From Blastocatellia bacterium (GTDB lineage Bacteria > Acidobacteriota > Blastocatellia > HR10 > J050): DNA of 64,000 nucleotides. The stretch lies in contig JANWZE010000025.1 in the NCBI GenBank assembly GCA_025054955.1, positions 1 through 64,000 of the forward strand, given 5' to 3'. The position numbers and the translations under genes were made by a program. The notes beneath the pieces are model-generated. The model saw nothing but the letters and a program-made list of their open reading frames with translations. It ran no database searches and had not been told where the DNA came from. This document shows positions 22,414 through 59,495 of this stretch, piece by piece (within the stretch, counting starts at the first letter, position 1; every line of letters begins with the position of its first letter).

Positions 22414-22597
22414 AGTCGCTACACTCAGCCTACATCAGTTTTGGAATCGTTCCACCCCCAGAACGGCTCATGTTAGCTTGATTGAACAAAACCGACCCCC
22501 GTTGTCGGTCATCCTGCAAGTACGAGCAGACCATGGCATTATTGATCAACGAGCTTCCTTGCCGACCGCAGACCAGCCAACTGATTCATGCCGGGCG

Positions 22598-23758: not shown

Positions 23759-23792
23759 ACCGTTTTCCTCATCGAGGTCCCAGATGTCTCAC

Positions 23793-24932: not shown

Positions 24933-24971
24933 GAACCCCCTCCGTGCGTTGATATGTGTTTCTGCAGCGCC

Positions 24972-26135
24972 TTACGAACCAGCGCCACGCGCGACGCGCA
25001 GCGCGCCGAATCGTTTTAAGATCATTGCCACTGGCTCGGTCAATCGGTCCCAATTCCACGCCGTTTTAATCAGGTGAACGCCGTTGGCTGACATCTCTTC
25101 CCACAGGGGCCGGTCGGTCAATTGTTCAAGCGCTTGATGAAACTGCTCCCCGTCGGAGCGCTCTGTCACAATCCCGCAACGATGCTGCTTGACCACATCG
25201 GCCCACTCACCATACTGTGGCGTGATGACGGGCAACCCGCAGGCCAAATAGTCAAACACCTTGATGGGACAAGCCACACGGCGCGTCAGCCCATCGGTTG
25301 AAGGCGCCATGCCGACTTGCATGCGAGCGAACACATTCATGATGTTGTTGCGTGGCACACTGCCTAGGTAAATCATCCGAATCTGTTCCGTTTCAATGCG
25401 GTTGATCAGATGATCTTTCAGATAGCCGGAACCGGCCAGATAGAATTCGTGGCGCGTGGCGCGCTTGCTCGTGTCGAGGAAGGCATCCACATGCTCCCAG
25501 AAGACCAGCGCGCCACCATAGATGACTTTCAACGGCTCACGAAAACGCGCTTGCACCGGCGATGGGTCAGAGCCGTTGGGAATGCAGACGAGTCGCTCAC
25601 CGTTGACCCCATGTTGATTGACGAAATAGTCGCTCATCGGTTTGGAGACAGTAATCAACACCTGACTGCCGGCAACGGTTTGTTGTTCAATCGCGCGAAA
25701 GTAATCCAGATGCGCCGGCACAATCTTCTGAAACGGATTTTCAGCATATTCGGCGGTCGTCAGTCCATGAATATCGGTGACCAATGGAATGGCGTGTCGT
25801 TGCGCCAGTGGAGCCATCACCCCACCAACCAATTCGGTTTCACACCACAGCAGGTCCGGCTTGACGGCGCGGATTTTCTTCTCCGCCACCAAGGCATACA
25901 GTTTCGCTTGCATGGCCAGCTTACTGAGCTGCCAATTCATCACAGCGTGGACGCAGGATCGCGCCAAGACCCACGGCTGGGTGAACAGGCGCCAACGCGG
26001 TTGATGCGTCTCTTTGAAATTGACGACGGTCACATCAGCGCCAGCTCTCTTTAAGGCCTTGTACATCTTGGAAACGCGGATGGCATCGCCCAGTTGGCCC
26101 TGGACATCTACCAAGTAAAGAACTTTCATATCCAT
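24972..26135 (-). CDS. Glycosyltransferase (GT4-like)
   Basis: This 387-residue glycosyltransferase begins MDMKVLYLVDVQGQLGD. DLLWCETELVGGVMAP follows near residue 115, TDIHGLTTAEYAENPF near 140, and a C-terminal donor-binding region with STDGLTRRVACPIKVFDYLACGLPVITPQ near 285. The conserved D-Y-x-A-C-G-L-P-V block is typical of GT4. Two in-frame ATGs (26135 and 26129) compete, and neither has a strong ribosome binding site. It follows the small membrane-protein gene by 34 nt and precedes wecB by 39 nt. Substrates are unknown. Confidence 0.82.
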   Translation of the reverse strand: MDMKVLYLVDVQGQLGDAIRVSKMYKALKRAGADVTVVNFKETHQPRWRLFTQPWVLARSCVHAVMNWQLSKLAMQAKLYALVAEKKIRAVKPDLLWCETELVGGVMAPLAQRHAIPLVTDIHGLTTAEYAENPFQKIVPAHLDYFRAIEQQTVAGSQVLITVSKPMSDYFVNQHGVNGERLVCIPNGSDPSPVQARFREPLKVIYGGALVFWEHVDAFLDTSKRATRHEFYLAGSGYLKDHLINRIETEQIRMIYLGSVPRNNIMNVFARMQVGMAPSTDGLTRRVACPIKVFDYLACGLPVITPQYGEWADVVKQHRCGIVTERSDGEQFHQALEQLTDRPLWEEMSANGVHLIKTAWNWDRLTEPVAMILKRFGALRVARGAGS

Positions 26136-26169
26136 CTCACGATACGCACACGCCCCCCTTTAACCCCTC

Positions 26170-26985
26170 TCAGGCGACGTGAGATAAACCAACGGACGGA
26201 CGAACCTGTCCGACTAGATGACCTAACACAGCGGTCAAGATCAACGCTTCACCCACTAACAACGCAGCCATCTGGATGATGACGACTTCAACCATGACGT
26301 TGTGGCCGAGCCACACCGTCTGCCACAACCAGGCTTCAAACGGCTCCATTCCGAGCTTCACCGCAAAGCCCAGGAAGCCGGCTACCCACAACGCTTGCGT
26401 GGCGCGGCTTGCTCCGCGTCCGGCGATGAATCGTCGGCTCAGATATAGCACCCCAACAAAGACCGGTACATACACCAACATGTAGCTATACGCGGCCAGC
26501 CCCACATCCTGGATGAACACGTGATCGGTCGTGATGGCCGTGACCGTCGCCACACCGAGCTGCCGTGAATACATGCTCAACACCTGATCAAAACGCTCAT
26601 GCACTTGAGCAGCTTCGTCAAGCGATAAAAACAGAAACACGACGGCTAACGCCAACCAACCCACGGCGTGCGCGACCGACACGCTTCGCAGCCGTTCACT
26701 GATAAACAGACCACCACATGTCAACCCGATCAACGCCAATTGGAGACTGGAAAACCACGTCGTCACGCTGCCTTCTCGTTCCAGCCCGAAGAAGTCCCGC
26801 AAAACGGCTGTTGCGTCGCTAGGATAGATATTGTTAACAAGCGCAGCCATCACATGACACAGCACGAGCGCGGCTGTGGTCGTCAGCAACACCGTCAGCG
26901 TTTGCTTGACGACGCGATCAAGAATGAGCCTCGTCAATGACTGAGGAGCGATGCGGCTCAATCCAATTGTTTGCGCGCCGTTCAC
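26170..26985 (-). CDS. Integral membrane protein of unknown function
   Basis: This 271-residue protein has about seven hydrophobic segments (for example VLLTTTAALVLCHVMAAL and VGWLALAVVFLFLSL) and no family I recognise. I place the start at a GTG (26985). The sequence GGAGG lies 7 nt upstream, and the GTG overlaps the TGA of the flippase gene as GTGA, a classic coupled start. A longer open frame upstream lies inside the flippase gene and is not credible. The motif SLDEAAQVHERFD near residue 120 and the EPFEAWLWQTVWLGHNV stretch near 225 are good search handles. The tight coupling to the flippase suggests a role in export or membrane handling of the polymer. Confidence 0.7.
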   Translation of the reverse strand: MNGAQTIGLSRIAPQSLTRLILDRVVKQTLTVLLTTTAALVLCHVMAALVNNIYPSDATAVLRDFFGLEREGSVTTWFSSLQLALIGLTCGGLFISERLRSVSVAHAVGWLALAVVFLFLSLDEAAQVHERFDQVLSMYSRQLGVATVTAITTDHVFIQDVGLAAYSYMLVYVPVFVGVLYLSRRFIAGRGASRATQALWVAGFLGFAVKLGMEPFEAWLWQTVWLGHNVMVEVVIIQMAALLVGEALILTAVLGHLVGQVRPSVGLSHVA

Positions 26986-28406
26986 GATGCCACCTCCGAT
27001 TTCAGCTCGCGCTCGCTTGTGTCGCCAAGCGCCGGTCGCCAGCCCAGCGCCATGAGACATGCGGCATAACACACGACGCTCAACGGCACAATCATCCAGA
27101 TCGTTTGCTCGCGCAAGCCATAAACTATCACCACCATGACAGCCGTCGCCACCAGCAATCGCCCTGAGAGCCGCAGTAACGACACCTGATACAACGTCGC
27201 TGAAACGTAAGCAAATTCGAGCAGACACAGCGCCGTAATCGAGATGAGTTGCGCCATGGCCACACCCGTGGCGCCGAATTTGGGAATCAAAACCAGATTC
27301 AACGCGACATTGACCGCCACCGCCAGCGCATTGCCCCATGCGTCAACGTGCTGCTTGTTGGTCGCCATCAGGCTGCGCGCCAGCACCGTGACCATGCCCA
27401 GCGGGATGAGCGACCAGATTAACACGCGCAGCGGCGCTGCCGCCGACTCATAGCCCGCTCCAAAGAGCAGCCCAATCACCTGCTCGCTCATCAGGTAGGT
27501 TCCCGCTGCCAACGGCAGTAATAATGCCAACAGATTGCTCATACTGCTGCGGCTAAACCGACCCAGCTCGGCCAACGACAGAGACGCCAGCCGGCACATT
27601 GTCGGATTGATGGACGCAGCATAGCTGACGCAGATCAACGTCCAGGGCACGAGCAATCGGCTGGCCACGCCATACATGGCCACATCCGTCGCCTCATGAT
27701 GGCGGTCGAGCAACAACGTGCCTAACTGCCAGTGCAAACCGGCCAACAAATTGATGAATAAAAATGCTGGCGTCTGCCTCAGTATTTCTTGCATGCAACG
27801 ACGGCTAGGTGACGCCAGCAAAACCGCTGAACGGCGCAGAGCCATCACGTAGACAATCAATGCGCCCACACGCAACAACGCAAGCGTCGCTGAGACGGCC
27901 AGTAGGCCGAATCCCAGATGAATCAACAACCACGGCACAACCGCTTTCAACAGGTTCTCGCTCGTATTGACAGCGGCAATCATCGAGGCGCGCTCATGAG
28001 CCATCAACCACGATTCACAACCGACGATCAACGCCGTGGCAAACACCGAAAGGCTCAATACCATCAGCGATTGAACCACAAGCGTGTCCTGGCTCACCAC
28101 CCAGCCGACGCCCACCATGATGCCGCCACAGGTCAACCCACCCACACTCAACACCGAGGTCATGCTGCCGAGGAACTCGCCGGTTGCTCCCCGCCGACTG
28201 GCCACTTCTCGAACAATCAATGGGCCAAGGCCAAGCGAACACACATTGAAAAACACCAGATAGATGGCCATGATCAGCGTGAACTGTCCAAGCGCCGCCG
28301 GCCCCAGATAGCGGGCCACAATCGCCCACACCAGCAGGCTGTTGATCATGCTCATCGCCCCTGACCACATCATGAATCCGGTGTTCTTCAAAATAACTGA
28401 CATCAT
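26982..28406 (-). CDS. Oligosaccharide flippase (Wzx/MATE-like)
   Basis: This 474-residue polytopic protein of the polysaccharide transporter family has about 12-14 transmembrane segments. It would flip undecaprenyl-linked repeat units across the inner membrane. Supporting phrases are the N-terminal KNTGFMMWSGAMSMINSLL with ARYLGPAALGQFTLI, the helical pairs through residues 80-450, and PKFGATGVAMAQLISI near 390, typical of Wzx proteins. The start is uncertain: a GTG at 28409 and ATGs at 28406 and 28403 lie together with no strong ribosome binding site. Its 3' end overlaps the GTG of the next gene by 4 nt. With the ligase/polymerase genes upstream, it indicates Wzx/Wzy-type assembly. Confidence 0.86.
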   Translation of the reverse strand: MMSVILKNTGFMMWSGAMSMINSLLVWAIVARYLGPAALGQFTLIMAIYLVFFNVCSLGLGPLIVREVASRRGATGEFLGSMTSVLSVGGLTCGGIMVGVGWVVSQDTLVVQSLMVLSLSVFATALIVGCESWLMAHERASMIAAVNTSENLLKAVVPWLLIHLGFGLLAVSATLALLRVGALIVYVMALRRSAVLLASPSRRCMQEILRQTPAFLFINLLAGLHWQLGTLLLDRHHEATDVAMYGVASRLLVPWTLICVSYAASINPTMCRLASLSLAELGRFSRSSMSNLLALLLPLAAGTYLMSEQVIGLLFGAGYESAAAPLRVLIWSLIPLGMVTVLARSLMATNKQHVDAWGNALAVAVNVALNLVLIPKFGATGVAMAQLISITALCLLEFAYVSATLYQVSLLRLSGRLLVATAVMVVIVYGLREQTIWMIVPLSVVCYAACLMALGWRPALGDTSERELKSEVAS

Positions 28407-37650: not shown

Positions 37651-40233
37651 CTACTGGCTTGAGCGATGCTCAACATCATCGGCTTCCGGCAGCGGTGGCA
37701 AGAGTAACGCTGTTCCGCTTGGCAGCTCGTCCCAATTGTAGACGTGAGGATTTGCGGCGCGCACGCGGTTGACCAATCGCGGCGTGACAGCGCCATACTC
37801 GCGGCGCATAATGCTCAGTAATGTCTCGCCTGGACCGACAATGACCATGTGAGGCGTTGCTTCAGCCGGGTTGGCCTCGCCGCCGGGCAGTGCGGATGAG
37901 ACCGATGCCGGCGCCAGCGGCCCAGTGGGGATCATCAGCGGCGAGGTGGAGATTTCCGTTTTGCCGGGCATCGTGGCCAATTGCCCCGCTGTCATCTTTA
38001 CCGGCCAGCGGCTGACTCCATGAGTCATCCATGCCGTGATCTGACCACCATAGAATTTGGTGATCACAAACCCGCCCACCAAACCTACGCACAGAGCAAA
38101 CAAGGCTAAAAACAACGCAGCAGCGAACAATTGTGGCCGAGACCAATGTTGCGGCACTTCGATCCGCGACAGCGGCACACGGACCGGTTCAGGTCGCGTC
38201 CAGGAGTGATCCCACGTCTGAGGCGTCGCTCCTATGGCAAAGTCATGTTTGACACGCGGAATCGGTTCTGAGTCAGTAGACGGCTGGACGTTCCTGTCAA
38301 ACTCTGCTTCTGTAGGCTCAGACCAGAATGATCTCATCGCGTCAGACTCATCCATGAGTTTTCCTAATGCCGCGCTGCGCACGCCTGCCAATAGTTGTTC
38401 ATCCTGATGCGCCGTGGTTGGTCGTCCTGCCCGCGCCTGAATGAATGTTTCCAATTCATCCAACAATTGATCCATCGAAAGCCCGACCGGTTGACTTTGC
38501 TGCCATCGTGGCCGTGACAGCGAGCTTGGATATTCGTTCGCCAGCCGAACGTTCAACGGACGCTCAACCGGGGACGAGTTGGTCTTATCATGAGTGACAG
38601 CCGGCACGGTATCAGGCGCGGGCGCCGGCGGCATATCCAGCGCAGGCTCTACCGCTCGCGCCGGAGCAGACAACCCAACGAACGCTGGGCGACGCTCTGC
38701 CTCTGCGCCCACCAACGGCGCAGGCACGCCAGGCACACGACCATAGGCGGGACGAAATCGGCCAGCGGCTTTTGGTTTGAACGGCGTTACATTGGAGCCG
38801 CTCTCGGATGATTCTGCTACATCACCAACCTTGCTTGCCGGCGCGGTAGCCGCTGAAGGCGCTTGGTTGTCGGACTCATCGGAAGTTTTCCCATCAGACC
38901 CGGTCACCGCTGGCGCTGCCTCTGAAGCAAAATCCTTTCTAAGCTCTGATGTCTGATCCGGCTCAACCGATACGACCGGCGCCGACGCTGTTGAATCACT
39001 CAAACTAACGACTGCTGCCTGTGTAGAAACCGGCGCCGTTTCAACTGCAACTTCAGGGGTGAGCGTGGCGGCCTGAGCTGGAACCGTTGCCAGTGGAGCG
39101 ACGCCATCTGCCGGTTCAGGTTGTGTCGGCTGCGACCACGATTCGTGACTGACGTCAGCCAACGCGACCGACGGCGCGACGCTCGGCGTTACCACCGGGG
39201 GCGGCGCAATCATTGGTGATGACTGAGCTGAGGCGGCGCCCGAATGTGCGGCTTCTGATACCAGTTCCGCCTGCTGCCTTGTCACCTGCGCAGCCACTGT
39301 CTGCGCGTCGGCTTCGGACGACATCTGATCGTCAGCTTCGGCAGACATGGCCACCAACCATTGCTGCATTTCCGGGTCAGTCGCCTTCGAGGCAGCAACA
39401 GGATCAATCAGCGGCACTGATTCAAACAGGTCTAACTCCTGAGCAGCTTCTTTGACCATCGGCAGCTCGATGCGGTACTTATTCTCCGCATACGCCACCA
39501 GCAGCGCATTATGACAGACAGCGTTAATCAATCGAGGAATCCCGTGCGAGGCTTCGTAAATAGCGGCCAGCACAGGCCGGCTCATGAGCGAGTGCAACGG
39601 CTTATTCCATTCAGTGCACCGCAACCGATGCTCGATGTACTCGCTTGTCTCAGACATGGTCAGTGGCCGCAAATTGACATTGACGGTGATGCGTTGTTTC
39701 AACTGAGCCAGTTCTGACAATCCCAGCTTGGATTTCAACTGCGGTTGACCAACCAACATCACTTGCAGCAGCTTCGCCTGCGGAACCTCAAAATTGGTCA
39801 ACAGGCGAATATCTTCCATCTCGCGGATGGAAAGATTCTGCGCTTCGTCGAAAATCAGCACAACATTGTTACCGGAGCGCCACTGATCAGCCAGTAGATC
39901 CTGAAGCTGTCGGGTCAAGCTCAACACAGTGCCGCCCTGCGGTTTGCTGCCCAACGATTCAAGAATGAATTGCAATCGTTGCTTGAACGTCAGGTCTGTG
40001 CCGGGCAGGAAGACGGTTCGGACAGAATTTTCTAATTGCTCCAACAACGCATAGAGCAACGTCGTCTTGCCCGTGCCAGGTTCGCCGGTCAGACAGATAA
40101 AGCCTCGACGCATTTTCACGCCGTACATCAATGCGGCAAACGCTTCTTGATGGCCGGGGCCCAAATACAGAAATCGCGGGTCGGGGCTTACGCCAAACGG
40201 GTCTTCACGGAATCCAAAATGCTCAGTGTACAT
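37651..40233 (-). CDS. ExeA-like AAA ATPase with membrane segment and LysM-like tail
   Basis: This 860-residue protein has an N-terminal AAA (ExeA/TniB-like) domain at residues 1-270, with Walker A GEPGTGKTT near 50, Walker B VVLIFDEAQNL near 120, and the family opening MYTEHFGFREDPFGVSPDP. A long Ala/Pro/Ser/Thr/Glu-rich linker runs to about 690. One transmembrane helix lies at about 702-724 (LALFALCVGLVGGFVI). A LysM-like domain lies at about 796-846 (VGPGETLLSIMRREYG...VRAANPH). It resembles the XrtA-system ATPase but with a longer, membrane-spanning C-terminus that would place LysM in the periplasm against peptidoglycan. It may energise or gate export. The start overlaps the chain-length gene by 11 nt. 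Confidence 0.87.
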   Translation of the reverse strand: MYTEHFGFREDPFGVSPDPRFLYLGPGHQEAFAALMYGVKMRRGFICLTGEPGTGKTTLLYALLEQLENSVRTVFLPGTDLTFKQRLQFILESLGSKPQGGTVLSLTRQLQDLLADQWRSGNNVVLIFDEAQNLSIREMEDIRLLTNFEVPQAKLLQVMLVGQPQLKSKLGLSELAQLKQRITVNVNLRPLTMSETSEYIEHRLRCTEWNKPLHSLMSRPVLAAIYEASHGIPRLINAVCHNALLVAYAENKYRIELPMVKEAAQELDLFESVPLIDPVAASKATDPEMQQWLVAMSAEADDQMSSEADAQTVAAQVTRQQAELVSEAAHSGAASAQSSPMIAPPPVVTPSVAPSVALADVSHESWSQPTQPEPADGVAPLATVPAQAATLTPEVAVETAPVSTQAAVVSLSDSTASAPVVSVEPDQTSELRKDFASEAAPAVTGSDGKTSDESDNQAPSAATAPASKVGDVAESSESGSNVTPFKPKAAGRFRPAYGRVPGVPAPLVGAEAERRPAFVGLSAPARAVEPALDMPPAPAPDTVPAVTHDKTNSSPVERPLNVRLANEYPSSLSRPRWQQSQPVGLSMDQLLDELETFIQARAGRPTTAHQDEQLLAGVRSAALGKLMDESDAMRSFWSEPTEAEFDRNVQPSTDSEPIPRVKHDFAIGATPQTWDHSWTRPEPVRVPLSRIEVPQHWSRPQLFAAALFLALFALCVGLVGGFVITKFYGGQITAWMTHGVSRWPVKMTAGQLATMPGKTEISTSPLMIPTGPLAPASVSSALPGGEANPAEATPHMVIVGPGETLLSIMRREYGAVTPRLVNRVRAANPHVYNWDELPSGTALLLPPLPEADDVEHRSSQ

Positions 40234-41740
40234 CAGCGTATCCTCCTACACCCTCCTCTTCAGGGAGCGCGGCCAACACATTGAGTGAAAGCTGTCGCTC
40301 GATGATCTCTTCGGTTCGCACGGGATGCTCGAAGTATTCCAGGCCAAAAGCGGTGGCGATGCTGAAAAAGAGGCCGACAGCCAACCCCAAAATGGCATTC
40401 AACATGACATTGGGACTGACCGGCTGATAGTTGGGGGTCGCCGGCTCAGCAATGTTGACGTTGACGATCCGGTGCTGATCCAGCGCCTGGCTCAAGCGCG
40501 ATTCTTCGGTCTTTTTCACATAAGCTAAGTAGGTCTGCTCGACCACATCCCGCATTCGACGCAAGTTGCGCTGCTCATAGCTGTTTTCACGAATGTTGCG
40601 CACGCCGGCGCTATAACTTCCCAGCACACTGGAGAGCGCCTTGATGCGTTCTCGTTGCATGGAGGCTTCAGCGCGGGCACGCATCAGATCACTTTTGAGC
40701 GCCATGTGCAGCTCGTTTAGGCCCTGCGCCACTTCCTGAGCCGGTTTCTTCTCTAGTTGGTCAAGGTACTCTGTCACAGTCGCCACTTGCTCTTCCACTT
40801 GCTTGACCACCCGACTGTCTGGCTGGTACTTTTGCCGCAGTTCGGTCCGGCGCAGTTGCAATTCTCCCAATTTTTCACGTAATGTGTCAAGTCCTTCTTG
40901 ATATTTTGTTCGTGTTTCAGTGGTTATCCGTTCAGGCTGAGTGGCCAAAAACTGTTCTAACAGTGCGGCCTGCTCTTCGGCTGCTTTTAATCCAACTTTG
41001 GCTTCGTTTAGTTGCGCCTGAAATTCGGCCTGCTTCTGTAATGCCAGGTGTTCTTGCGTTTCGGCTGTGGCCAGCCCGTGACCGGATTCAAACCGTTTCA
41101 ACTGGTCTTCAATTTCCTGCAGCTTCTTGCGCAGCGCCTCTGTCTGCTCTTCATAAAACGCCGTCGCATTGCTTACCTGACGAAGTTGCAAATGCCGATC
41201 AATGTATGCCTGCGACAGCGTGTTCAACACATTGGCGGCCAGTTCCGGGTCACGAGCGCGATAGCTGACCTGCACCACGTTCGATTTTTTGATCGGGATA
41301 ACTTGCAGATTTTTCTTCAGGTTCAGTATGGCTCGATCCACTGCAGCCTTATCGGGCTGATCGTGAATTTTTCGATAAGAGCTGTCAAACCAGCGACTGA
41401 GCAGGCCGCCACCTGAGTTGGATTGCTTGGCCAAGCCGGTTTGCTCGACGACCTTGGCCAGAATGGGACGGCTGGTTAACAACTCGATCTCTGAATTCAT
41501 CTCGACTTCGCCGACTTCCGCCGAGACATATTCCCGCGTGGTTTCCACTTCGGATGAGACTACTGGTTCAGACCGCCCGCGGCGTAGCAAAATCTTACTA
41601 GTTGATTCATAGGTAGGCGGAATGAAGAGGGAACCAACGACAGAAATGACCAAGACCAGTAACGTGATCAACAGGATGACTTTTCGGCGCGCAAACAGGA
41701 CGGTCAAAATATAGCGCAGACTCAGTGGCTCTCGTTGCAT
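40223..41740 (-). CDS. Wzz/GNVR chain-length determinant
   Basis: This 505-residue inner-membrane protein has transmembrane helices at residues 22-41 (VILLITLLVLVISVVGSLFI) and about 455-475, with a long periplasmic coiled coil between. A GNVR-like region lies at 180-280 and a proline-containing YQPVSPN segment precedes the second helix. It sets polymer length and links export to the envelope. There is no C-terminal kinase domain; a BY-kinase-like protein is encoded separately three genes on. The start at 41740 follows AAGGAGTTCC with good spacing and begins MQREPLSLRYIL; a longer frame to 41782 has no better site. The stop overlaps the ATPase start by 11 nt. Confidence 0.9.
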   Translation of the reverse strand: MQREPLSLRYILTVLFARRKVILLITLLVLVISVVGSLFIPPTYESTSKILLRRGRSEPVVSSEVETTREYVSAEVGEVEMNSEIELLTSRPILAKVVEQTGLAKQSNSGGGLLSRWFDSSYRKIHDQPDKAAVDRAILNLKKNLQVIPIKKSNVVQVSYRARDPELAANVLNTLSQAYIDRHLQLRQVSNATAFYEEQTEALRKKLQEIEDQLKRFESGHGLATAETQEHLALQKQAEFQAQLNEAKVGLKAAEEQAALLEQFLATQPERITTETRTKYQEGLDTLREKLGELQLRRTELRQKYQPDSRVVKQVEEQVATVTEYLDQLEKKPAQEVAQGLNELHMALKSDLMRARAEASMQRERIKALSSVLGSYSAGVRNIRENSYEQRNLRRMRDVVEQTYLAYVKKTEESRLSQALDQHRIVNVNIAEPATPNYQPVSPNVMLNAILGLAVGLFFSIATAFGLEYFEHPVRTEEIIERQLSLNVLAALPEEEGVGGYADVH

Positions 41741-41880
41741 AACGGAACTCCTTGAAAACGATCCAAGCTGGGGATCAACCATCCACAGGAGGGTCGCCGA
41801 TGGTCATCCCCAGCTTTCATTGCGTCCTACCTCCAAAGACCTTCAGTACAGGGCTATGTTGACGCGATATTCCATCGAGG

Positions 41881-50112: not shown

Positions 50113-52485
50113 TCAATTGCCAGCCGGCGTCGCCACATAGATGGCCGAGGGCAAGGATGAACCGTTTGTTGCTGCTGTGAAGGCAATGTGCCCCTCACGG
50201 TTCAATCCGAGGCTGTAGAATCGGCTAAATCGGCCTGTTCCGCCGGACAGTGATTGCAGCGTTGTGGCGACAGGTCTGAGCGCCCCTTTGTCGAACATGA
50301 ACACACCCTGACGGATCGTCAACCATGTGCCGATAAAAGCAATCTGCCCGGCATTGTTAATCACCGCCTGGCCGAGCGATTGAAACAGCCGGCCGGCATC
50401 GCCTGGAACTTCCATGCCGGTATGAGCGACAAGCGACGCCCGCCCACTGGCCCAATGAAAGATGGCTTGATCATCCTCATAGTATGTCTGAAAGACTACT
50501 TCACCGCGATCGTTGAGCATGACCGATTCAAACTGACCATACTCGCGACCACCCAGCCCCGGCGCCTGTCGTTGACCTTTGGCTACGAGCGTGAGCCGTC
50601 CACCCAACCACAGAAACACACCTTCGTCACCATCATCGAGCGAGGCGATGAACGCGATTTCGCCGTCATTGTTAATCCATAGGTCTTTGCTATTGAATGA
50701 AACAAACCGAGCATCGCCAGGGGCAAGCTGTGATTCGACGGCGACCAGTTGATGCTGGCCGTTCGCATAGCGAATGATCGCTTGTTTCTCAGTGGCATCC
50801 TCGCCTGAGCCTTGACGAATAATCCCATTAAAAACAACCATGCCGGACTGGTTCATCACCACGTCTTCAAAACTGACAAATAGCGTATTGGGCAAGCCTG
50901 GCGCATCGCGTCCGAACAGGGCAATAGCTTCCGGCCCGCGCGTTAACACGCGCACGACACCAATCTCAGAAACGCCGCCCAGCAGCGAAACGCTCATGGC
51001 GGTTCCTCCCTGGTCGCTGAGGCCAAAGCGATTCGGCTCGAAGTCGGGAATCTCCGAAACGATCCCGTTGCCGCTATTGGCGACTGATTGCCCAGGAACT
51101 AGCAAAGGACGAATCGCTCCGCTATCGCTCAAATGTAGGCCACGTCCGTTGCCGGTCACTAGCCCGCTGAACGCTAGGGTCCCATTGGGGCTAAAGCCCA
51201 GGTCGCTGCCCAGCAGCAAATGACGCGCGCCGGGCACTGATGTGCGTGATGTGACTGCCGGCGTCACATTCAATCCATTAACCAGATAGATGCCAACTGT
51301 TCCCGGATTCACCGTGTGGCCAACAAAGGCAATGGTCCGGTCGGCATTGATGGCCAGGTCACCCGTTGGCACAAATCGGTCGGCCACTCCGCCAACCACC
51401 GATTTCTGCGAGTAAAGAGCAACACTCAAGGTTCCCCGCGAATAAACAAGGACAGCTTGACGTCCGCTCTCAAACACGGCGCGAAAAGCGAACTCCCGCT
51501 GCTGATTGCTGACGATCGTGGGAAAGTCCTCGTATCTCTCGCCTACTAACAGCGTCACCGACTGCCCCCCCACAGCGACGGTCTCCAGCCTGCCGCCGAT
51601 CATCGCATAGAGGTTCACTGATGCGCTGTAGCCGTTGAGGGCAAAGCCGACGAACGCTAAGTCTCCCTCTTCGCTGATCAACACCGTCTGACTGAACCGT
51701 TCAAATGTGCCGCCCACAGGAGCAGCTTGACCAGTGGCCAACAACAAGCGAAACGTGCCGGCGCTATAGAGGAAAACGACCGAACTGGCGCTGCCATTAC
51801 GGACCGACGCTTGAAGCAACAGTTTCCCGCTGTTGGTCAACGAGCGAACGGCCACCGCCGTGAATTGGCCTCCTACCGAAGGAGCCGGCTGCGTCGGCGC
51901 AGCAATCGCCTGCACCCGCTCGCGCTCCCAGAGAAACGCGGCTGTCTGCGTCGCAAATAAACTTCCGGTAAAGGCCACCTGGCCACTGTCATTCAGCAAC
52001 ACATGGAGAAAATCCTGGTAGCTCGAGAACGTGGGCACCGGCGGACGGTCGCTCGATAAAACAATTGAACGAATCGTCCGCGTGGACGCCGAATATAAGA
52101 AGATGCCTTTAAGAGCGCGCGCGCCAAACGTCGTAGCAATGAAGGCAACATCGCTATTGTTATTCAAACTCAGCCCTAACAGCTCGTCAAAATAGACGCC
52201 ACTCAACCCCGGCACAGGCTCAGCCGTGGATGCAATCGGAGTGATGCTATTGCCGATTTGAAGATACAAGCCGGTGTACTCACCAGCAATGAACGCCACG
52301 TGACCATGTGTGTTGATGGCGACCGTATTAAACTGAGCAAAATTGACCGGTGCTGTCACCGGCGTGCCAGTCGAGATCATGGGCGTCAGTTTGAACGTGC
52401 CTGACGATTGCGCCTGTACGACCCAGGGCCTTGATGCCACTAACACGAGAAGCCAAATGGCAGTCAACCACTGTTTGATCTTCAT
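50113..52485 (-). CDS. Secreted beta-propeller-like repeat protein (DUF7453-like)
   Basis: This 790-residue secreted protein has a signal peptide (residues 1-25, ending WVVQAQ) and then many copies of a loose 45-55-residue repeat. The repeat core is 'N..G.VAFIA....GIFL...G....I...GQ..PG.GG.F..F', seen for example in NNNSDVAFIATTFG, LNDSGQVAFTGSLF, SEEGDLAFVGFAL and NNAGQIAFIGTW. The pattern is typical of Acidobacteria and Planctomycetes surface proteins assigned to DUF7453; their role is unknown. The start at 52485 has GGAGG about 11 nt upstream, within a very short leader if the sigma-54 site at 52513-52528 is used. It could adhere to or bind polymer at the surface (inference). Confidence 0.78.
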   Translation of the reverse strand: MKIKQWLTAIWLLVLVASRPWVVQAQSSGTFKLTPMISTGTPVTAPVNFAQFNTVAINTHGHVAFIAGEYTGLYLQIGNSITPIASTAEPVPGLSGVYFDELLGLSLNNNSDVAFIATTFGARALKGIFLYSASTRTIRSIVLSSDRPPVPTFSSYQDFLHVLLNDSGQVAFTGSLFATQTAAFLWERERVQAIAAPTQPAPSVGGQFTAVAVRSLTNSGKLLLQASVRNGSASSVVFLYSAGTFRLLLATGQAAPVGGTFERFSQTVLISEEGDLAFVGFALNGYSASVNLYAMIGGRLETVAVGGQSVTLLVGERYEDFPTIVSNQQREFAFRAVFESGRQAVLVYSRGTLSVALYSQKSVVGGVADRFVPTGDLAINADRTIAFVGHTVNPGTVGIYLVNGLNVTPAVTSRTSVPGARHLLLGSDLGFSPNGTLAFSGLVTGNGRGLHLSDSGAIRPLLVPGQSVANSGNGIVSEIPDFEPNRFGLSDQGGTAMSVSLLGGVSEIGVVRVLTRGPEAIALFGRDAPGLPNTLFVSFEDVVMNQSGMVVFNGIIRQGSGEDATEKQAIIRYANGQHQLVAVESQLAPGDARFVSFNSKDLWINNDGEIAFIASLDDGDEGVFLWLGGRLTLVAKGQRQAPGLGGREYGQFESVMLNDRGEVVFQTYYEDDQAIFHWASGRASLVAHTGMEVPGDAGRLFQSLGQAVINNAGQIAFIGTWLTIRQGVFMFDKGALRPVATTLQSLSGGTGRFSRFYSLGLNREGHIAFTAATNGSSLPSAIYVATPAGN

Positions 52486-52512
52486 ACACACAGTTCCTCC
52501 GCTCGAACACAA

Positions 52513-52528
52513 AGCAAGTGACGTTCCG
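52513..52528 (-). promoter_or_regulatory. Sigma-54 promoter candidate for the repeat-protein gene
   Basis: Minus-strand CGGAAC-GTCAC-TTGCT keeps GG-N10-GC and the TTGCW -12 box and agrees with the consensus at 9 of 11 core positions. Predicted start is about 52502, 17 nt before the ATG, just upstream of the GGAGG ribosome site at 52496-52500. Confidence 0.42.
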
Positions 52529-52720
52529 CTTGGCCGCGCTGGGCGCACGACCGGGGCAATCCGCAATAAGCATTGCTCTCCGAGAAGTTATCATGGGCGA
52601 GAGGTGGCATTGTGACCATCCCTACTCACCCACTGCTGTTCATCTATGAAATGTCCTTTTCAGGGATTTCATGAACAGGAATTACGCGCCGGGACTGACA
52701 CGCGCTTGAGCCAATGCCGA

Positions 52721-53968
52721 TCACAGGAGGCGAAATCCTAACTGACGTCCAATGCGATTGAAAATGGTTTGTAAATCATCCAGCGACGGCGCGTCAAAGT
52801 AATGATCATTCGTGCCCGGCCTAGAGGAGGCCACGCGTTGCATCAATTCAATGTCCACATCGTCGGAAACCCCATAACGAATCGAAAAGATTTCGATGCC
52901 TTCATCCTTGGCGGCCTGCGCTTGCGCGAGCATCGCTTGGTCGAGGCAACCATAATCAGCATCGTCGCAATTCATCACGCCCATGCCGAAATAGGCATTG
53001 CGGCGGCAGGTGCTGTTGGGATTTGTCATCGCATCGCCGATATTGTTATCGCCATCGGTGAGCAGGATCATAACCTTTCGGAATCGCGACCGCGGGCCAG
53101 CCTCAGTAAACGGCGCATCGGAGGTCAACACGTGCCGGCCCCATTTGATGCCTTCCGCAATCGTCGTGCAAGAAGAATACGGAGTACCGCCCTGCGCCTG
53201 CATGCTGGCAATCGCCGCATGAATGGCCCCCTTGTTATAAGAGAGTCCAGCCACCGGCGGAAGCGCCGGATTTGTGCATGATTGATCTGCCGGGTTGAGC
53301 GGTTGATTGAACGACCCATCGGCATTGCGGCAGCCGGCCGGCCGACCATCCACATCGGCGGGCAATCGCACTTTTCCACGAAACGCTACCAATCCGACTT
53401 TGATAGACGGCGCTGTGCCGTTGGGAATTAACATGTCAACAAACTGATGAGCCGCCGCCTTCACTGATTCAATTGGCTCACCCTCCATGCTGCCAGAATT
53501 GTCTATCACCAGCGCAACTTCCAGATCATTGAAGCCGGCGCAAGCGGACGCCGCGACATCGCGCGAGCTAATGGCCAGCACATTCATGAACGTCATTTCC
53601 ACATTCACCTGTGCTGTCACACATACGCTCCGAACGCCAGTGCCGGGATTAAGAGCGGTAACCGTCGCGCCTGAGTAATTCCTGTTCAGATAATCATTGA
53701 CCGCATTGGCCACGGCGCCATTTTGGCAGTCAGGATCGCTCATCAAGTACATTGACCCGGCCAGCGCCGCTGCATCCACGGCTGCTTGCAGTCGCGCGCG
53801 AGCCGTATAGAGCCGTCCCATATCAACGGCGAATCCGGCCATGCCAAGAAGGATGGGGAACGTGATCGTCACCAGGAGTAACGCTTGGCCGCGCGCTCGC
53901 GCTCGCCGACGCGCCAGATACTGTTCAGACCCGCTCCTTGTCGAAGAAACAACCAATCGTTTCATCAT
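52721..53968 (-). CDS. VWA protein with TadG-like N-terminus (copy 3)
   Basis: This 415-residue protein has a TadG/TadE-like N-terminal helix (GQALLLVTITFPILLGMAGFA, in part, about 28-48), then MGRLYTARARLQAAVDAAALAG and a VWA domain. The MIDAS motif is VIDNSGSM (DxSxS) near residue 160. Cys-rich loops (CRNADG, NCDDADYGCLDQ) are kept in all three copies and suggest disulfides outside the cytoplasm. The C-terminus FNRIGRQLGFRLL is shared too. The start is chosen at 53968 (Met-Met) because the sigma-54 candidate at 54012-54027 would put the transcript start at about 54001, just before the other ATG at 53998. Unlike copies 1 and 2 it has no TadE-like partner. Confidence 0.8.
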   Translation of the reverse strand: MMKRLVVSSTRSGSEQYLARRRARARGQALLLVTITFPILLGMAGFAVDMGRLYTARARLQAAVDAAALAGSMYLMSDPDCQNGAVANAVNDYLNRNYSGATVTALNPGTGVRSVCVTAQVNVEMTFMNVLAISSRDVAASACAGFNDLEVALVIDNSGSMEGEPIESVKAAAHQFVDMLIPNGTAPSIKVGLVAFRGKVRLPADVDGRPAGCRNADGSFNQPLNPADQSCTNPALPPVAGLSYNKGAIHAAIASMQAQGGTPYSSCTTIAEGIKWGRHVLTSDAPFTEAGPRSRFRKVMILLTDGDNNIGDAMTNPNSTCRRNAYFGMGVMNCDDADYGCLDQAMLAQAQAAKDEGIEIFSIRYGVSDDVDIELMQRVASSRPGTNDHYFDAPSLDDLQTIFNRIGRQLGFRLL

Positions 53969-54011
53969 GCTCTTCTCTGAATTGTTTACGCTTACCATAT
54001 CTCATCTCCCT

Positions 54012-54686: not shown

Positions 54687-55163
54687 CTAAGAGCAAGGAA
54701 TCCATGGTTCGTTCAGTTTGCGATCCTGGCCTTGCAGTTCAATCTGGCCGCTGTTGGGCATGATGCGGCTGATCAAGGGAACCACCGGCCGATACGTGTA
54801 CCGTACGATGACTTCGACCAAGTCACAGGGCGCTCCCGGATGATTATCGCGGGCGCCGCCGGATGTGGTCACACCGGCATAGCTGCGCACGCTGATAATC
54901 GGCGCATTGCCCGGCAGACCGGCAACCGCATTCTGAGCGGCTGTGATGATGCGACTCAACCGCGTGCCGTCTTCCTCACCTTCTCCAGTGACGGCCACAC
55001 GCGCGGCTGTGCGGGCTGCATGTTGAACCGTGACCCAAGCATGAAACAGCCGCCCCATCTCGATGACGCCAAATAGACACACCACCAGCAGGGGCGTGAC
55101 CAGCACCATCTCCGTGAGCGCTTGTCCGCGGCTGCTACGCATATAATCGTGATAGTTCACCAT
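54687..55163 (-). CDS. TadE-like protein (b2)
   Basis: This 158-residue pilus-assembly TadE-like protein has a short cytoplasmic start (SSRGQALTEMVLVTPLLVVCLFG, in part), one transmembrane helix at about 17-34 and a small extracytoplasmic domain. The phrase IEMGRLFHAWVTVQHAARTAAR is typical of TadE. The C-terminal end QDRKLNEPWIPC is nearly the same in its paralogue at 57299-57772. It closes the second TadE-VWA-TadE module, 17 nt after the VWA gene. The ATG at 55163 has GAGGG upstream. It probably sits in the inner membrane facing the periplasm and may form a minor-pilin-like filament part. The function is not known. Confidence 0.84.
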   Translation of the reverse strand: MVNYHDYMRSSRGQALTEMVLVTPLLVVCLFGVIEMGRLFHAWVTVQHAARTAARVAVTGEGEEDGTRLSRIITAAQNAVAGLPGNAPIISVRSYAGVTTSGGARDNHPGAPCDLVEVIVRYTYRPVVPLISRIMPNSGQIELQGQDRKLNEPWIPCS

Positions 55164-55180
55164 AACCGACCCTCGCCTGC

Positions 55181-56497
55181 TTAGAGCAATCGAAATCCAA
55201 GTTGACGCCCAATTCTGTTAAACACTGTTCCAATGTCATTGACCGACGGGGCATCATAGTAATGATCATCGGTGCCCTGTGACGATGATGCCACCGCCTT
55301 CATCAACGCGATGTCCACCGCGTCGGACACGCCGAAGCGAATGGCAAAAATTTCAATACCCTCCTCCTTCGCTTTCCGCGCCTCCTCCAACATGGCTTGA
55401 TCCAGGCAGCCATAATCATTACACCCACAGTTGGTCACGCCCATCTGGAAATAGGCATTGCGCCGATAGGTTGATTGTGGATCTGTGCGAGGGCTGCGTC
55501 CGCCGAACTGACCTGAACATGTGCCATCCTCGTTATCTCCGTCGGTGAGCAGGATAATCACCTTGCGAAATCGGTCCTTGGAACCCCCTTCAACAAACGG
55601 CGCTTCCGGCGTCAATACATGCCGTGCCCATTTTAACCCTTCGGCAATAATGGTGCCCGACGTATCGCTCGGTGAGTTCCCGGCATTCATCGTATGAATC
55701 GCGCGTTTAATGCTGGACTTGTTGTAAGAGAGTCCAAAAACCGGCGGCAACGCGGCATCCCGGCAGGAATAATCGGGAGGATTGACGTTGGAATTATTAA
55801 CCGAGCCATTAGCATTGCGACAACCGGCCGGCTTGCCATCCACGCCATCAGGCAGCCGGATTTTGCCGCGAAACGGCACAAGACCAACCTTGATTGAAGG
55901 AGCGCCGCCGTCGGGAATCATCAGGTCCACCAGCTTGATCGCTGCTTGCTTCACTTCGGCAATGGGCCGTCCATTCATACTGCCAGAATTGTCAACGACC
56001 AGAACGACCTCAAGGTCATTAAACCCTGCGCATGAACGCGCGCTCACACTTCGAGAGCTGAGGGCCATCACTTTCATGAACGTCATGGGCACATCGGTCT
56101 GAGCCGAGACGCACACGCCACGCACCTGCGTTAACGGGCTCAACGCTGTGACGAGCGCGCCCGGATAGTTGTTGACAAGGTATTCAGTAACAACATTGGC
56201 AACTATGCCGTTTCTCAGTTGTGGGTCTGAACCAAGATACATCGAACCAGCCAGCGCCGCCGCATCCACGGCTGCTTGTAATCTGGCCTTGGCGGCATAC
56301 ATTCGTCCCATGTCAACGGCCAATCCCGTCATCCCTAACACGACCGGCAAGGCGACCGCGATGGCCAGCAAAACTTGACCACGGGCCCGACCGCGCCCGC
56401 TACGGGATAGGCATCGTTGAGGTGCCCCTAAGCCTGAGCGGATTGGGCAGCAGCTCGCTAACCAATGGAATATTGCCGAAAATAAACCTGTAATCAT
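55181..56497 (-). CDS. VWA protein with TadG-like N-terminus (copy 2)
   Basis: This 438-residue protein has N-terminal TadG-like hydrophobic segment (GQVLLAIAVALPVVLGM near residues 40-56), VDAAALAGSMYL and a VWA domain with MIDAS VVDNSGSM near 160. It keeps the Cys-rich loops (CRNANGS, NCGCNDYGCLDQ) and the terminal FNRIGRQLGFRLL. The only ATG in frame (56497) lies inside the upstream TadE-like gene and overlaps it by 98 nt, exactly as in copy 1. No strong ribosome site precedes it, so coupled re-initiation or +1 frameshifting from the TadE frame are both possible. Confidence 0.82.
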   Translation of the reverse strand: MITGLFSAIFHWLASCCPIRSGLGAPQRCLSRSGRGRARGQVLLAIAVALPVVLGMTGLAVDMGRMYAAKARLQAAVDAAALAGSMYLGSDPQLRNGIVANVVTEYLVNNYPGALVTALSPLTQVRGVCVSAQTDVPMTFMKVMALSSRSVSARSCAGFNDLEVVLVVDNSGSMNGRPIAEVKQAAIKLVDLMIPDGGAPSIKVGLVPFRGKIRLPDGVDGKPAGCRNANGSVNNSNVNPPDYSCRDAALPPVFGLSYNKSSIKRAIHTMNAGNSPSDTSGTIIAEGLKWARHVLTPEAPFVEGGSKDRFRKVIILLTDGDNEDGTCSGQFGGRSPRTDPQSTYRRNAYFQMGVTNCGCNDYGCLDQAMLEEARKAKEEGIEIFAIRFGVSDAVDIALMKAVASSSQGTDDHYYDAPSVNDIGTVFNRIGRQLGFRLL

Positions 56498-56819
56498 AAT
56501 TCACCACTACTGTCACCGTCCGGTTGCCTCGACTATCAAAGCCATACGTTGCTTGAGAAGTGAGTGTGGATGTGGGCAGCCGCTCAGCCAATGTTTGCAC
56601 TAATCCGTTCAGGTTCGCCGTCGGACCCTCACGAACGATCAGCCGGGCTCCGTCTCGGCTAGCTTCGGCTACCGTCAAATAAGCATTCAAGCCATTTCCC
56701 ACTTCGACCAAGCCAACCAATATGATCAGGATGATCGGCAGCAACAGACTCAGTTCAATCAGTGCGCCACCTGTTTCCGCATGCCGTTGCTGTGATTTCT
56801 TGCGATTCGTTGCCTGCAT
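56400..56819 (-). CDS. TadE-like protein (a2)
   Basis: This 139-residue TadE-like protein has HAETGGALIELSLLLPIILIILVGLVEVG (in parts): a cytoplasmic start, one helix at about 18-38 and a small exported domain. NAYLTVAEASRDGARLIVREGP is the TadE-type post-helix segment. It ends in TSTMPIP; the sister protein ends TTMPIP. The last 98 nt are shared in another frame with VWA copy 2. The start at 56819 has GCAGGG 6 nt upstream. It heads the second module. Confidence 0.83.
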   Translation of the reverse strand: MQATNRKKSQQRHAETGGALIELSLLLPIILIILVGLVEVGNGLNAYLTVAEASRDGARLIVREGPTANLNGLVQTLAERLPTSTLTSQATYGFDSRGNRTVTVVVNYDYRFIFGNIPLVSELLPNPLRLRGTSTMPIP

Positions 56820-57298
56820 ATTGCACCCTGCCTTTTAGGACATCGTTGCTTAGCCTCAACCGGCCAAGCCCTCTACATGACCAATGCCCTTGGCGCGCTC
56901 AAACAATCCACACCAGATTGTCCCAAAACGCACCAGGTCTCACAATCGGCAGGACTACCTACTTCTCAACTTAGAATTACGGAGGAAGCAACGACTTCAA
57001 TACCAGTTCACATGAAGAGGCCGTGTGTTGGCACTGTTCGTGCCTTTCGTAACCCTTTTGCTAAAAGACTCCGGAATGAATTTGTGCAACGTGCGGCTAT
57101 TGTGAGGGGAGAATGGTGGTAAAGGTGGTGGGCACAGGGTGTGCCGGCCTACACCGACAGGGCGTGAGTTACTGAGGGAACAGCGTGAATGTGAGCGACG
57201 TGAGGGGTGGCAACGTTGCTGAGCGATGAAATGACAAGAGGCGGTCTCGTATCTTCTGCTTGCTCGGTGTTGTCACCCCTTCAAAACGCTCCACGCGC
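56820..57298. other. 479-bp gap between the two modules
   Basis: No gene is supported. The stretch separates module 1 (57299-59411) from module 2 (54687-56819) on the minus strand. I see no strong promoter consensus and no T-run terminator; a GG-N10-GC match at 56842-56860 lacks the TTGC box. Confidence 0.5.
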
Positions 57299-57772
57299 TC
57301 ATGGACAGGGAATCCACGGTTCGTTCAATTTGCGATCCCGACCGCGCAACTGAATCGTTCCTTGATTGGGCATCAGACGCCGGATGAATGGCAGAATGGG
57401 CCGATAGTTGTACCGAAGCTCGACCTCCACCAATTCGCACGGTTGCCCCGGATTGCCCAGTCGGCCTGGGCCAGTGGCTGTCATGCCGGGCCAACTTTGC
57501 ACGATCACTTGCGGAACCGGACTCAAGCTTTGCACCCGCGAGAGCGCCGCGCTGACAATGGCATTGTAGCGCGTGCCTTCCAGCTCGCCTCTGCCTGTGA
57601 CGGCGACCCGCGTGGCCACTCGCGCAGCATGTTGGATCGTCACGTAACAGAAGAACAATCGGCCTAATTCGATAACACCATACACGCACAGAAACATGAT
57701 CGGGGCGGCCAACGCCATCTCCGTGATCCCCTGACCACGACTGCGTTTCTGCTGAGATCGTTCGTGAGCCAT
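57299..57772 (-). CDS. TadE-like protein (b1)
   Basis: This 157-residue paralogue of the gene at 54687 has SRGQGITEMALAAPIMFLCVYGVIELG (in parts), one helix at about 17-35, then FFCYVTIQHAARVATRVAVTG and a small exported domain. The terminal DRKLNEPWIPCP block is the shared hallmark of this pair. The start at 57772 follows AAGGAGG with 5-nt spacing. It comes 21 nt after VWA copy 1 and closes module 1. Confidence 0.84.
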   Translation of the reverse strand: MAHERSQQKRSRGQGITEMALAAPIMFLCVYGVIELGRLFFCYVTIQHAARVATRVAVTGRGELEGTRYNAIVSAALSRVQSLSPVPQVIVQSWPGMTATGPGRLGNPGQPCELVEVELRYNYRPILPFIRRLMPNQGTIQLRGRDRKLNEPWIPCP

Positions 57773-57793
57773 GTCTGCCTCCTTAGCAGCAGC

Positions 57794-59116
57794 TTACAGT
57801 AATCGGTAGCCCAACTGCCGCCCGATTTTCTCAAACACCTTCCCAATGTCAGATGTGGAAGGAGCATCGAAATAATGATCGTCGGTGCCGGGCGAGGAAG
57901 ACGCAATGGCTTTCATCAGCGCGATGTCAACGGAATCGGAATCGCCATAGCGAATGGCAAATATCTCAATGCCGGCATCCTTAGCCAGTTGCGCCTGCGT
58001 GAGCATCGCTTGATCCAGGCAGCCATAGTTATTGCAGTTGCAGTTGGTCACCGGCGGCGATTGTTGGAAATAGGCATTGCGACGATACGCGCATGTGGAG
58101 CTGGTTCTCGGATCACAACTGCCAAACGTTCCGCTGCAAGTGCCATCCTCGTTATCGCCATCGCTCAGTACAATCATGACCTTGCGAACCTTGTTAGGTT
58201 GGCCCCCTTGAGTAAAGGGTGGTTCCGGCGTCAGCACGTGTCGGCCCCATTTGATGCCTTCCGAGATGATCGTTCCCGAGGCATAGCGCGTGCCACTACC
58301 GGCATTCATGCTATTGATGGCGTTCTTGATTGTTGTCTTGGAAAACGACAACGCCGCTACTGGGGGTAGAGCCGCATCCTTACAGGAATCATCCGGTGGG
58401 CTCACATTTGAATTATTCACCGTGCCATTAGCATTTCGACAGCCTGCCGGTAATCCGTCAACATTAGCACCCACTCTCACCTTGCCACGAAACGGAGCTA
58501 GTCCGACTTTTATAGCGGGAGCCGTGCCGCCCGGTATCATCAAGTCAACCAGCTTATTGGCCGCCGTTTTCACGGAGTTGATCGGCGTGCCGTTCATACT
58601 CCCCGAATTATCAATGACCAGCACGACCTCCAGATCATTGAAGCCAGCGCAGGCAGAGGCTGAAACGGTTTCCGATTCAATACCCAACACTCCCATGAAC
58701 GTCATCGGCACTTCGACTTGGCCGGTCAGACAAACAGTGCGGACGGTCGTGCCTGGCCCCAGGCTCACAACGGAGGCCTCCGGAAAGTTTTCGTCAAGGT
58801 ACGTCGCCACTACGTTGGCAATCGTGCCATTGTTGATGTTTGGATCACTGGTCAAATAGAGCGTTCCGGCCAGTGCTGCGGCATCCACAGCGCCCTGGAG
58901 CCGTGCCTGGGCTGTGTACAACCGCCCCATATCAACAGCCAGCCCTGTCATGCCGGCTAATACCGGCATGGCAATGGCCACGGCAATCAAGACCTGCCCG
59001 CGCGCGCCCCCTTGCTTGTTAGGGGATGGGCATGGTCGTCTGCGCGGTGAGCGTGAATTGTTCGGGAAATATGTGGCAAAGAATTGGAAAATTGGCAAAA
59101 ATAAATCTGTACGCAT
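57794..59116 (-). CDS. VWA protein with TadG-like N-terminus (copy 1)
   Basis: This 440-residue protein has an N-terminal leader (residues 1-38) that is unlike the other copies, then the TadG-like GQVLIAVAIAMPVLAGM segment and a VWA domain with MIDAS VIDNSGSM near 155. Conserved Cys loops (CRNANGT, NCNCNNYGCLDQ) and the terminal FEKIGRQLGYRLL tie it to copies 2 and 3. The ATG at 59116 overlaps the upstream TadE-like gene by 98 nt. VWA copies in TadG position suggest metal-dependent adhesion or binding of partner subunits outside the membrane. Confidence 0.83.
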   Translation of the reverse strand: MRTDLFLPIFQFFATYFPNNSRSPRRRPCPSPNKQGGARGQVLIAVAIAMPVLAGMTGLAVDMGRLYTAQARLQGAVDAAALAGTLYLTSDPNINNGTIANVVATYLDENFPEASVVSLGPGTTVRTVCLTGQVEVPMTFMGVLGIESETVSASACAGFNDLEVVLVIDNSGSMNGTPINSVKTAANKLVDLMIPGGTAPAIKVGLAPFRGKVRVGANVDGLPAGCRNANGTVNNSNVSPPDDSCKDAALPPVAALSFSKTTIKNAINSMNAGSGTRYASGTIISEGIKWGRHVLTPEPPFTQGGQPNKVRKVMIVLSDGDNEDGTCSGTFGSCDPRTSSTCAYRRNAYFQQSPPVTNCNCNNYGCLDQAMLTQAQLAKDAGIEIFAIRYGDSDSVDIALMKAIASSSPGTDDHYFDAPSTSDIGKVFEKIGRQLGYRLL

Positions 59117-59411
59117 ACGTCACCCTCACTGTCACTTTTTGGTTTCCTTTGAAATCTGTGCCATACATCGGATTGACTTGTAACGAAGAACTCGGCAATC
59201 GTGTGGTCAGCGTTTGCGCCACTCCATAATAGTCGGATGAAGGGCCTTTACGCACAATCAACCGAGCACACTCTCGACTCGCTTCCGAGATGGACAGGTA
59301 CGCGTTCAGCGCGTTGCCGACTTCAACGACCCCGATGAGTAACGTCGTCAAAATCGGCAAGAGCAGCGCCAACTCAATGAGGGCATGCCCTCGTTCTTTT
59401 CGTTTGTTCAT
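59019..59411 (-). CDS. TadE-like protein (a1)
   Basis: This 130-residue TadE-like protein starts MNKRKERGHALIELALLLPI, followed by one helix at about 12-32 and NALNAYLSISEASRECARLIV. The exported domain ends LTAQTTMPIP, like its sister a2. GAGGAGGG lies 8-10 nt before the ATG at 59411; a TTG six codons upstream is less likely. It is the first gene of module 1 and lies about 122 nt downstream of the predicted start of the sigma-54 promoter at 59544-59559. Confidence 0.83.
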   Translation of the reverse strand: MNKRKERGHALIELALLLPILTTLLIGVVEVGNALNAYLSISEASRECARLIVRKGPSSDYYGVAQTLTTRLPSSSLQVNPMYGTDFKGNQKVTVRVTYAYRFIFANFPILCHIFPEQFTLTAQTTMPIP

Positions 59412-59495
59412 ACGTTCGACCCTCCTCAAGGTCTTCGCTCTTTCTCAAACCCCGCATCGCCCAACAGACTATGCGAAGCCAACTAACCCATAACC

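Follow-up and report, generated by a model that had tools for sequence, protein, structure and literature searches.

Tandem TadE–VWA–TadE modules of a Blastocatellia bacterium as probable alternative tips of a Tad pilus encoded elsewhere in the genome

Which machine, if any, assembles pilin-like proteins whose genes lie far from any pilus locus? The question is raised by a seven-gene cluster in the window, the 64,000-nucleotide stretch of a Blastocatellia bacterium genome analyzed here. A sequence-only reading had described the cluster as TadE-VWA-TadE modules without Tad secretion machinery, possibly forming a metal-dependent adhesive filament. Our analysis indicates that the proteins of the cluster very probably form alternative tips for a Tad (type IVc) pilus, the machine of which is located elsewhere on the chromosome, on contig C5. 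This assignment is based on gene content, motifs, single-protein fold models and the linkage of homologues to Tad cores.

Six minus-strand genes (54687–59429) are transcribed in the order TadE_d, VWA3, TadE_c, TadE_b, VWA2, TadE_a (Table 1). All four TadE proteins match PF07811 (TadE; E 5e-16 to 4e-11), and the three VWA proteins match both PF13400 (Tad; 1e-12 to 5e-10) and PF00092 (VWA; 4e-17 to 5e-15), in each case above the curated cut-offs. TadE proteins in the same position are more alike (TadE_a and TadE_c 54%, TadE_b and TadE_d 51% identical) than those in different positions (31–36%), from which it follows that the whole module was duplicated with its gene order intact. The gene reading, the Pfam matches and these in-register identities bear out the two tandem modules described earlier. 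The third VWA gene counted with them exists, but lies outside the 54687–59411 interval given for the cluster, at 52721–53998, separated from TadE_a by a gap of ~690 bp and without a TadE pair of its own. The window VWA proteins are 64–69% identical to one another, VWA2 and VWA3 sharing 69% over 403 codons. A scan of the cluster for sigma-70 promoters and terminators gave no clear excess over shuffled sequence.

Table 1 Minor pilin genes of the window cluster, in order of transcription, with VWA1 last.
Gene	Position	Strand	Description	Evidence
TadE_d	59019..59429	-	Small minor pilin, opens module 2	Prepilin motif G^HALIE; PF07811 E 2.5e-11
VWA3	57794..59116	-	TadG-like large minor pilin, C-terminal VWA (MIDAS) domain	PF13400 + PF00092
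TadE_c	57299..57772	-	Small minor pilin, gene 3 of module 2	G^QGITE; PF07811 E 3e-12
TadE_b	56400..56819	-	Small minor pilin, opens module 1	G^GALIE; PF07811 E 3.6e-11
VWA2	55181..56497	-	TadG-like VWA minor pilin, module 1	PF13400 + PF00092
TadE_a	54687..55163	-	Small minor pilin, gene 3 of module 1	G^QALTE; PF07811 E 5e-16
VWA1	52721..53998	-	Lone TadG-like VWA paralogue	PF13400 E 1.1e-12, PF00092

The annotated starts of VWA2 and VWA3 each overlap the preceding TadE gene (TadE_b and TadE_d, respectively) by 98 bp (56400–56497 and 59019–59116). In both genes the first in-frame ATG is found at this distance inside the upstream TadE gene, and relatives of VWA2 and VWA3 also carry long in-frame extensions. 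Coupled translation or a conserved overlap of the two genes may account for this. Where translation really begins is uncertain, as only ~20 bp separate the TadE stop codon from the conserved Gly in the pilin helix.

The prepilin Gx4E motif is retained in the TadE alignments, including all 14 homologues of the upstream protein TadE_d. Judged by sequence, the small proteins are thus TadE-family pilins with a prepilin motif, as in known Tad tip sets. TadE_c ends in a conserved DRKxNEPWxPC motif, and its model shows a confident pilin-like lollipop shape (pLDDT 92), for which a Foldseek search of the PDB returned no significant match.

Unlike the TadE proteins, the VWA proteins lack the Glu of the prepilin motif. 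They are TadG-type proteins with a pilin-like N-terminus and a C-terminal head, as in other Tad tip sets. The MIDAS residues D134, S/T136, S138, T247 and D284 are retained in all 20 aligned members of the VWA family; together with the PF13400 matches, this agrees with the TadG-type N-terminus and complete metal site noted previously. The shared Cys loops of that reading hold in part: Cys191 and Cys210 are invariant among the 20 proteins, but the remaining loops vary across the family and VWA1 lacks part of them. The AlphaFold2 model of VWA3 (pLDDT 83.4, pTM 0.79) comprises a 46-residue pilin helix (residues 6–51), a small sheet and a VWA fold, and its top matches among solved structures are the pilus adhesin SpaC and the pilus-tip protein Mfa5. 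VWA3 is therefore a pilin module fused to a vWA domain with an intact MIDAS, the architecture of Caulobacter CpaL.

The source genome (152 contigs, 99.5% complete) encodes a single TadA-type ATPase, which is located not on the window contig but on contig C5. The core around it (locus L017) contains Flp, TadV (PF01478), RcpC (PF16976), the RcpA secretin (PF00263), TadZ, TadA, a 162-residue protein, TadB and TadC. The Flp gene (10338–10565 of L017) matches PF04964 with E 1.2e-7 and 31.9 bits, 0.3 bit under the cut-off of 32.2. No TadE or TadG gene is found among the C5 core genes, and the contig extends 0.7 kb beyond TadC. The window cluster is at least 54 kb from both ends of its 184 kb contig (C25), so a Tad core does not lie just outside; a complete Tad locus immediately beyond the window, which would have made these ordinary tadE/G genes, is not there. 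The absence of machinery near the cluster is thus confirmed locally, but does not extend to the genome, which has the complete C5 core.

In total, 10 TadE and 8 TadG-like genes are present alongside the one TadA, arranged as five E-E-G sets and three lone G genes. They are distributed over four contigs (C25, which carries the window, C21, C103 and C100), none of which is C5. A VWA domain is found in the three G proteins of the window and in one on C100. For two tested G proteins, belonging to the C103 and C100 sets, Tad models were the only matches, and head type thus appears to vary from set to set. The genome therefore pairs a single Tad core with several paralogous E/F/G sets, as in the Kil system of Myxococcus.

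Relatives of VWA3 were sought in 84,980 species genomes, and 16 were found. Eleven belong to Desulfovibrionales, and all 11 show the E–VWA–E order at 0.2–3.2 kb from Tad core genes. A further four are Blastocatellia/Acidobacteria loci on contigs of two genomes, G021 and G022, with no Tad core within view. At a distant Thermoflexus locus, TadE- and VWA-like genes adjoin Tad core genes. The module is thus conserved in Desulfovibrionales and in related Acidobacteriota. It is unlinked to the Tad core in the source genome and its family members, across three genera of the class. Like the source genome, G022 carries a complete core, of nine genes, with no recognizable TadE or TadG gene in the ~5 kb flanking it on each side, which makes dispersal a trait of this family. 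In G023, of the same order, the operon reads Flp-TadV-E-E-RcpC-RcpA-G-G-TadZ-TadA-X-TadB. Its G genes are homologues of the dispersed C21 TadG of the source genome (E 1e-122 and 4e-127) and its E genes are homologues of the C103 E genes, so that, one rank higher, genes of this type do sit with a Tad core. A genetic link to a Tad core, absent from the source genome, thus exists in homologous loci. Across the class, the VWA family occurs in 4 of 162 genomes; TadA is present in all four carriers, compared to 56 of 162 overall, a co-occurrence that is statistically weak because the carriers are related. Six class genomes that were tested and have no PF13400 protein are also absent from the TadA-positive list. 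A point against the tip reading is G018 (same order, 98% complete), which has a PF13400 gene with no TadA match at 1e-60.

This linkage bears on which machine would assemble the module. The genome encodes a second type IV filament machine of the T2SS/T4P type on contig C38, with a GspE/PilB-type ATPase, a two-domain platform protein and a secretin-like protein, which could in principle act in place of the Tad core. We regard this as very unlikely, because TadE and TadG are Tad components in described systems and the homologues are linked to Tad rather than T2SS/T4P genes in all 11 Desulfovibrionales loci and in G023. It is likewise highly improbable that the seven proteins build their own filament or surface complex with no part played by a Tad machine. 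The lack of machinery on either side of the cluster and the unlinked position of the module in the class agree with such an arrangement. However, all carrier genomes have TadA, the C5 core lacks its own TadE/G while homologues elsewhere adjoin a core, and in described cases TadE/TadG proteins work together with a Tad motor and a prepilin peptidase (PMC12075869, PMC13170226). The absence of TadE/G from the C5 core and the position of the Desulfovibrionales modules beside Tad cores also speak against the earlier description of the modules as lacking Tad secretion machinery. The adhesive filament it proposed retains sequence support as a MIDAS-bearing adhesive surface structure of TadE/TadG-type proteins, but probably not as one without a machine.

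The earlier reading also knew of no described system of exactly this form, but two known systems come close. In the Tad pili that have been described, minor pilins prime filament growth and are located at the tip. Myxococcus xanthus has four paralogous KilLMN sets (Tip1-Tip4) in separate clusters, each a predicted trimer, that serve one Kil Tad pilus and alter its performance (PMC12075869). Like Kil, the source genome has several paralogous three-gene TadE/TadF/TadG-type sets in separate clusters, with one Tad machine, and a variable head on the large TadG-type protein. In contrast, the head of KilN4 is of unknown fold, whereas the window heads are VWA domains with a MIDAS; the source genome has its five sets and three lone G genes, with two sets in tandem; and the organism, unlike the Kil host, is not known as predatory. 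The second system is that of Caulobacter crescentus, in which CpaL is a pilin-vWA Tad tip protein reported to match SpaC and Mfa5 (PMC12607857), as VWA3 does. CpaJ, CpaK and CpaL have been fitted at the base of the machine in its resting state and are thought to prime and tip the pilus, with the vWA head proposed as a mechanosensor (PMC12607857, PMC13170226). The window modules share with CpaJ-CpaK-CpaL the combination of two small minor pilins and a pilin-vWA protein with MIDAS. Unlike Caulobacter, for which one set is described, the source genome has multiplied its set and placed it far from the core. Modules of Desulfovibrionales (Pseudodesulfovibrio, Solidesulfovibrio and others) have the same E-VWA-E order, with VWA proteins 48–54% identical over the full length, but adjoin the Tad core and are single-copy in the loci seen. 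The window modules combine the parts of a CpaJKL-like tip with the genomic layout of the Kil Tips.

As alternative Tad tips, the modules may work as follows. Each supplies two small minor pilins in the TadE/TadF position together with a large minor pilin of the TadG type, the pilin stem of which carries the VWA domain with its metal-dependent adhesion site. The leaders would be cut by the TadV prepilin peptidase at the conserved Gly (within Gx4E in the TadE proteins), and the three pilin helices would form a bundle that primes polymerization of Flp by TadA, TadB and TadC of the C5 machine. The VWA head would then be pushed out through the RcpA secretin, giving a tip that may adhere or sense force via the MIDAS. 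The two window sets, the three elsewhere and the spare G genes would, by comparison with the Kil Tips, be interchangeable on the pilus of this one machine.

The cluster is accordingly of a known kind, and the new details are an expanded vWA tip set in Acidobacteriota and the possible mobility of the module between phyla; the number of alternative tips in one genome is mildly unusual. The "adaptable tip" model of 2025, drawn from the Myxococcus Tad pilus, would extend to Acidobacteriota and to vWA-type tips. On this view, TadE/TadG genes far from any Tad locus should be taken as candidate tips of a core elsewhere in the genome, not as orphans or as signs of a new filament.

In a tree of the close family, VWA1–3 group together (support 89/92), as do the G021/G022 copies (88/90), so multiplication was probably independent in the two lineages; the deep tree of all TadG-like proteins brings long branches together and is read only for the close family. 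The VWA family is present in 3 of 210 sampled Acidobacteriota genera, and the nearest outside relatives of VWA3 in the scan are Desulfovibrionales. Between the source genome and Desulfovibrionales, VWA3 is 48–54% identical, more than RcpC, RcpA and TadB (35–39%), but the TadE proteins reach only 26–43% and TadA 55–65%. As module and core identities are mixed, only the patchy distribution supports horizontal transfer; taken with the nearest relatives, it suggests that the tip cassette was transferred. We put forward tentatively, as a proposal that on balance is somewhat unlikely, that at least five exchangeable tips share a single Tad machine and that the E-VWA-E cassette moves between phyla without the machine and was multiplied locally after arrival.

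Orthologue pairs of G021 and G022 give dN/dS values of 0.03–0.13 for the VWA and downstream TadE genes, and the upstream TadE compared shows no amino-acid change; these genes are therefore under strong purifying selection. The values come only from close orthologue pairs, as synonymous sites of the window paralogues are saturated or nearly so. We give very little credence to the modules being redundant, decaying duplicates with no present function, as the many paralogues and the lone VWA gene without partners might suggest, since all frames are open, the MIDAS residues are intact in every copy and the orthologues are under such selection.

Directly downstream of VWA1, the window encodes an 817-residue DUF7453 protein (50113–52566; PF24251, E 6.8e-70). 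An ordinary exopolysaccharide-type cluster (21247–27339 and 37651–41782) contains glycosyltransferases, a UDP-GlcNAc 2-epimerase, a Wzz chain-length protein and an AAA ATPase.

The TadE/TadG sets outside the window (L018 on C21, 3–5792; L019 on C103, 3–6609; L020 on C100, 1468–8792) adjoin a TPR-CHAT protein and a small conserved protein with a cysteine-bearing N-terminus, anti-sigma-like by eye. Relatives of both are also found near TadG-like genes in locus L023, and a sigma-70 family factor lies near the C100 set. A regulatory link between the sigma factor, the CHAT/TPR protein and alternative pilus tips is possible.

The 162-residue protein encoded between TadA and TadB (L017, 2811–3299) is conserved, has no Pfam match and occupies the same place in the Tad cores of G021, G022 and G023; it may be a Tad core component of this group that has yet to be described. 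Intergenic stretches of L017 (for example 4653–4814 and 10844–11066) translate to a recurring EIRNPKSEIRN / FGFRIWDFGFP peptide. Its recurrence in many intergenic or N-terminal stretches of the genome, and also in locus L021, suggests a DNA repeat dispersed over several contigs.
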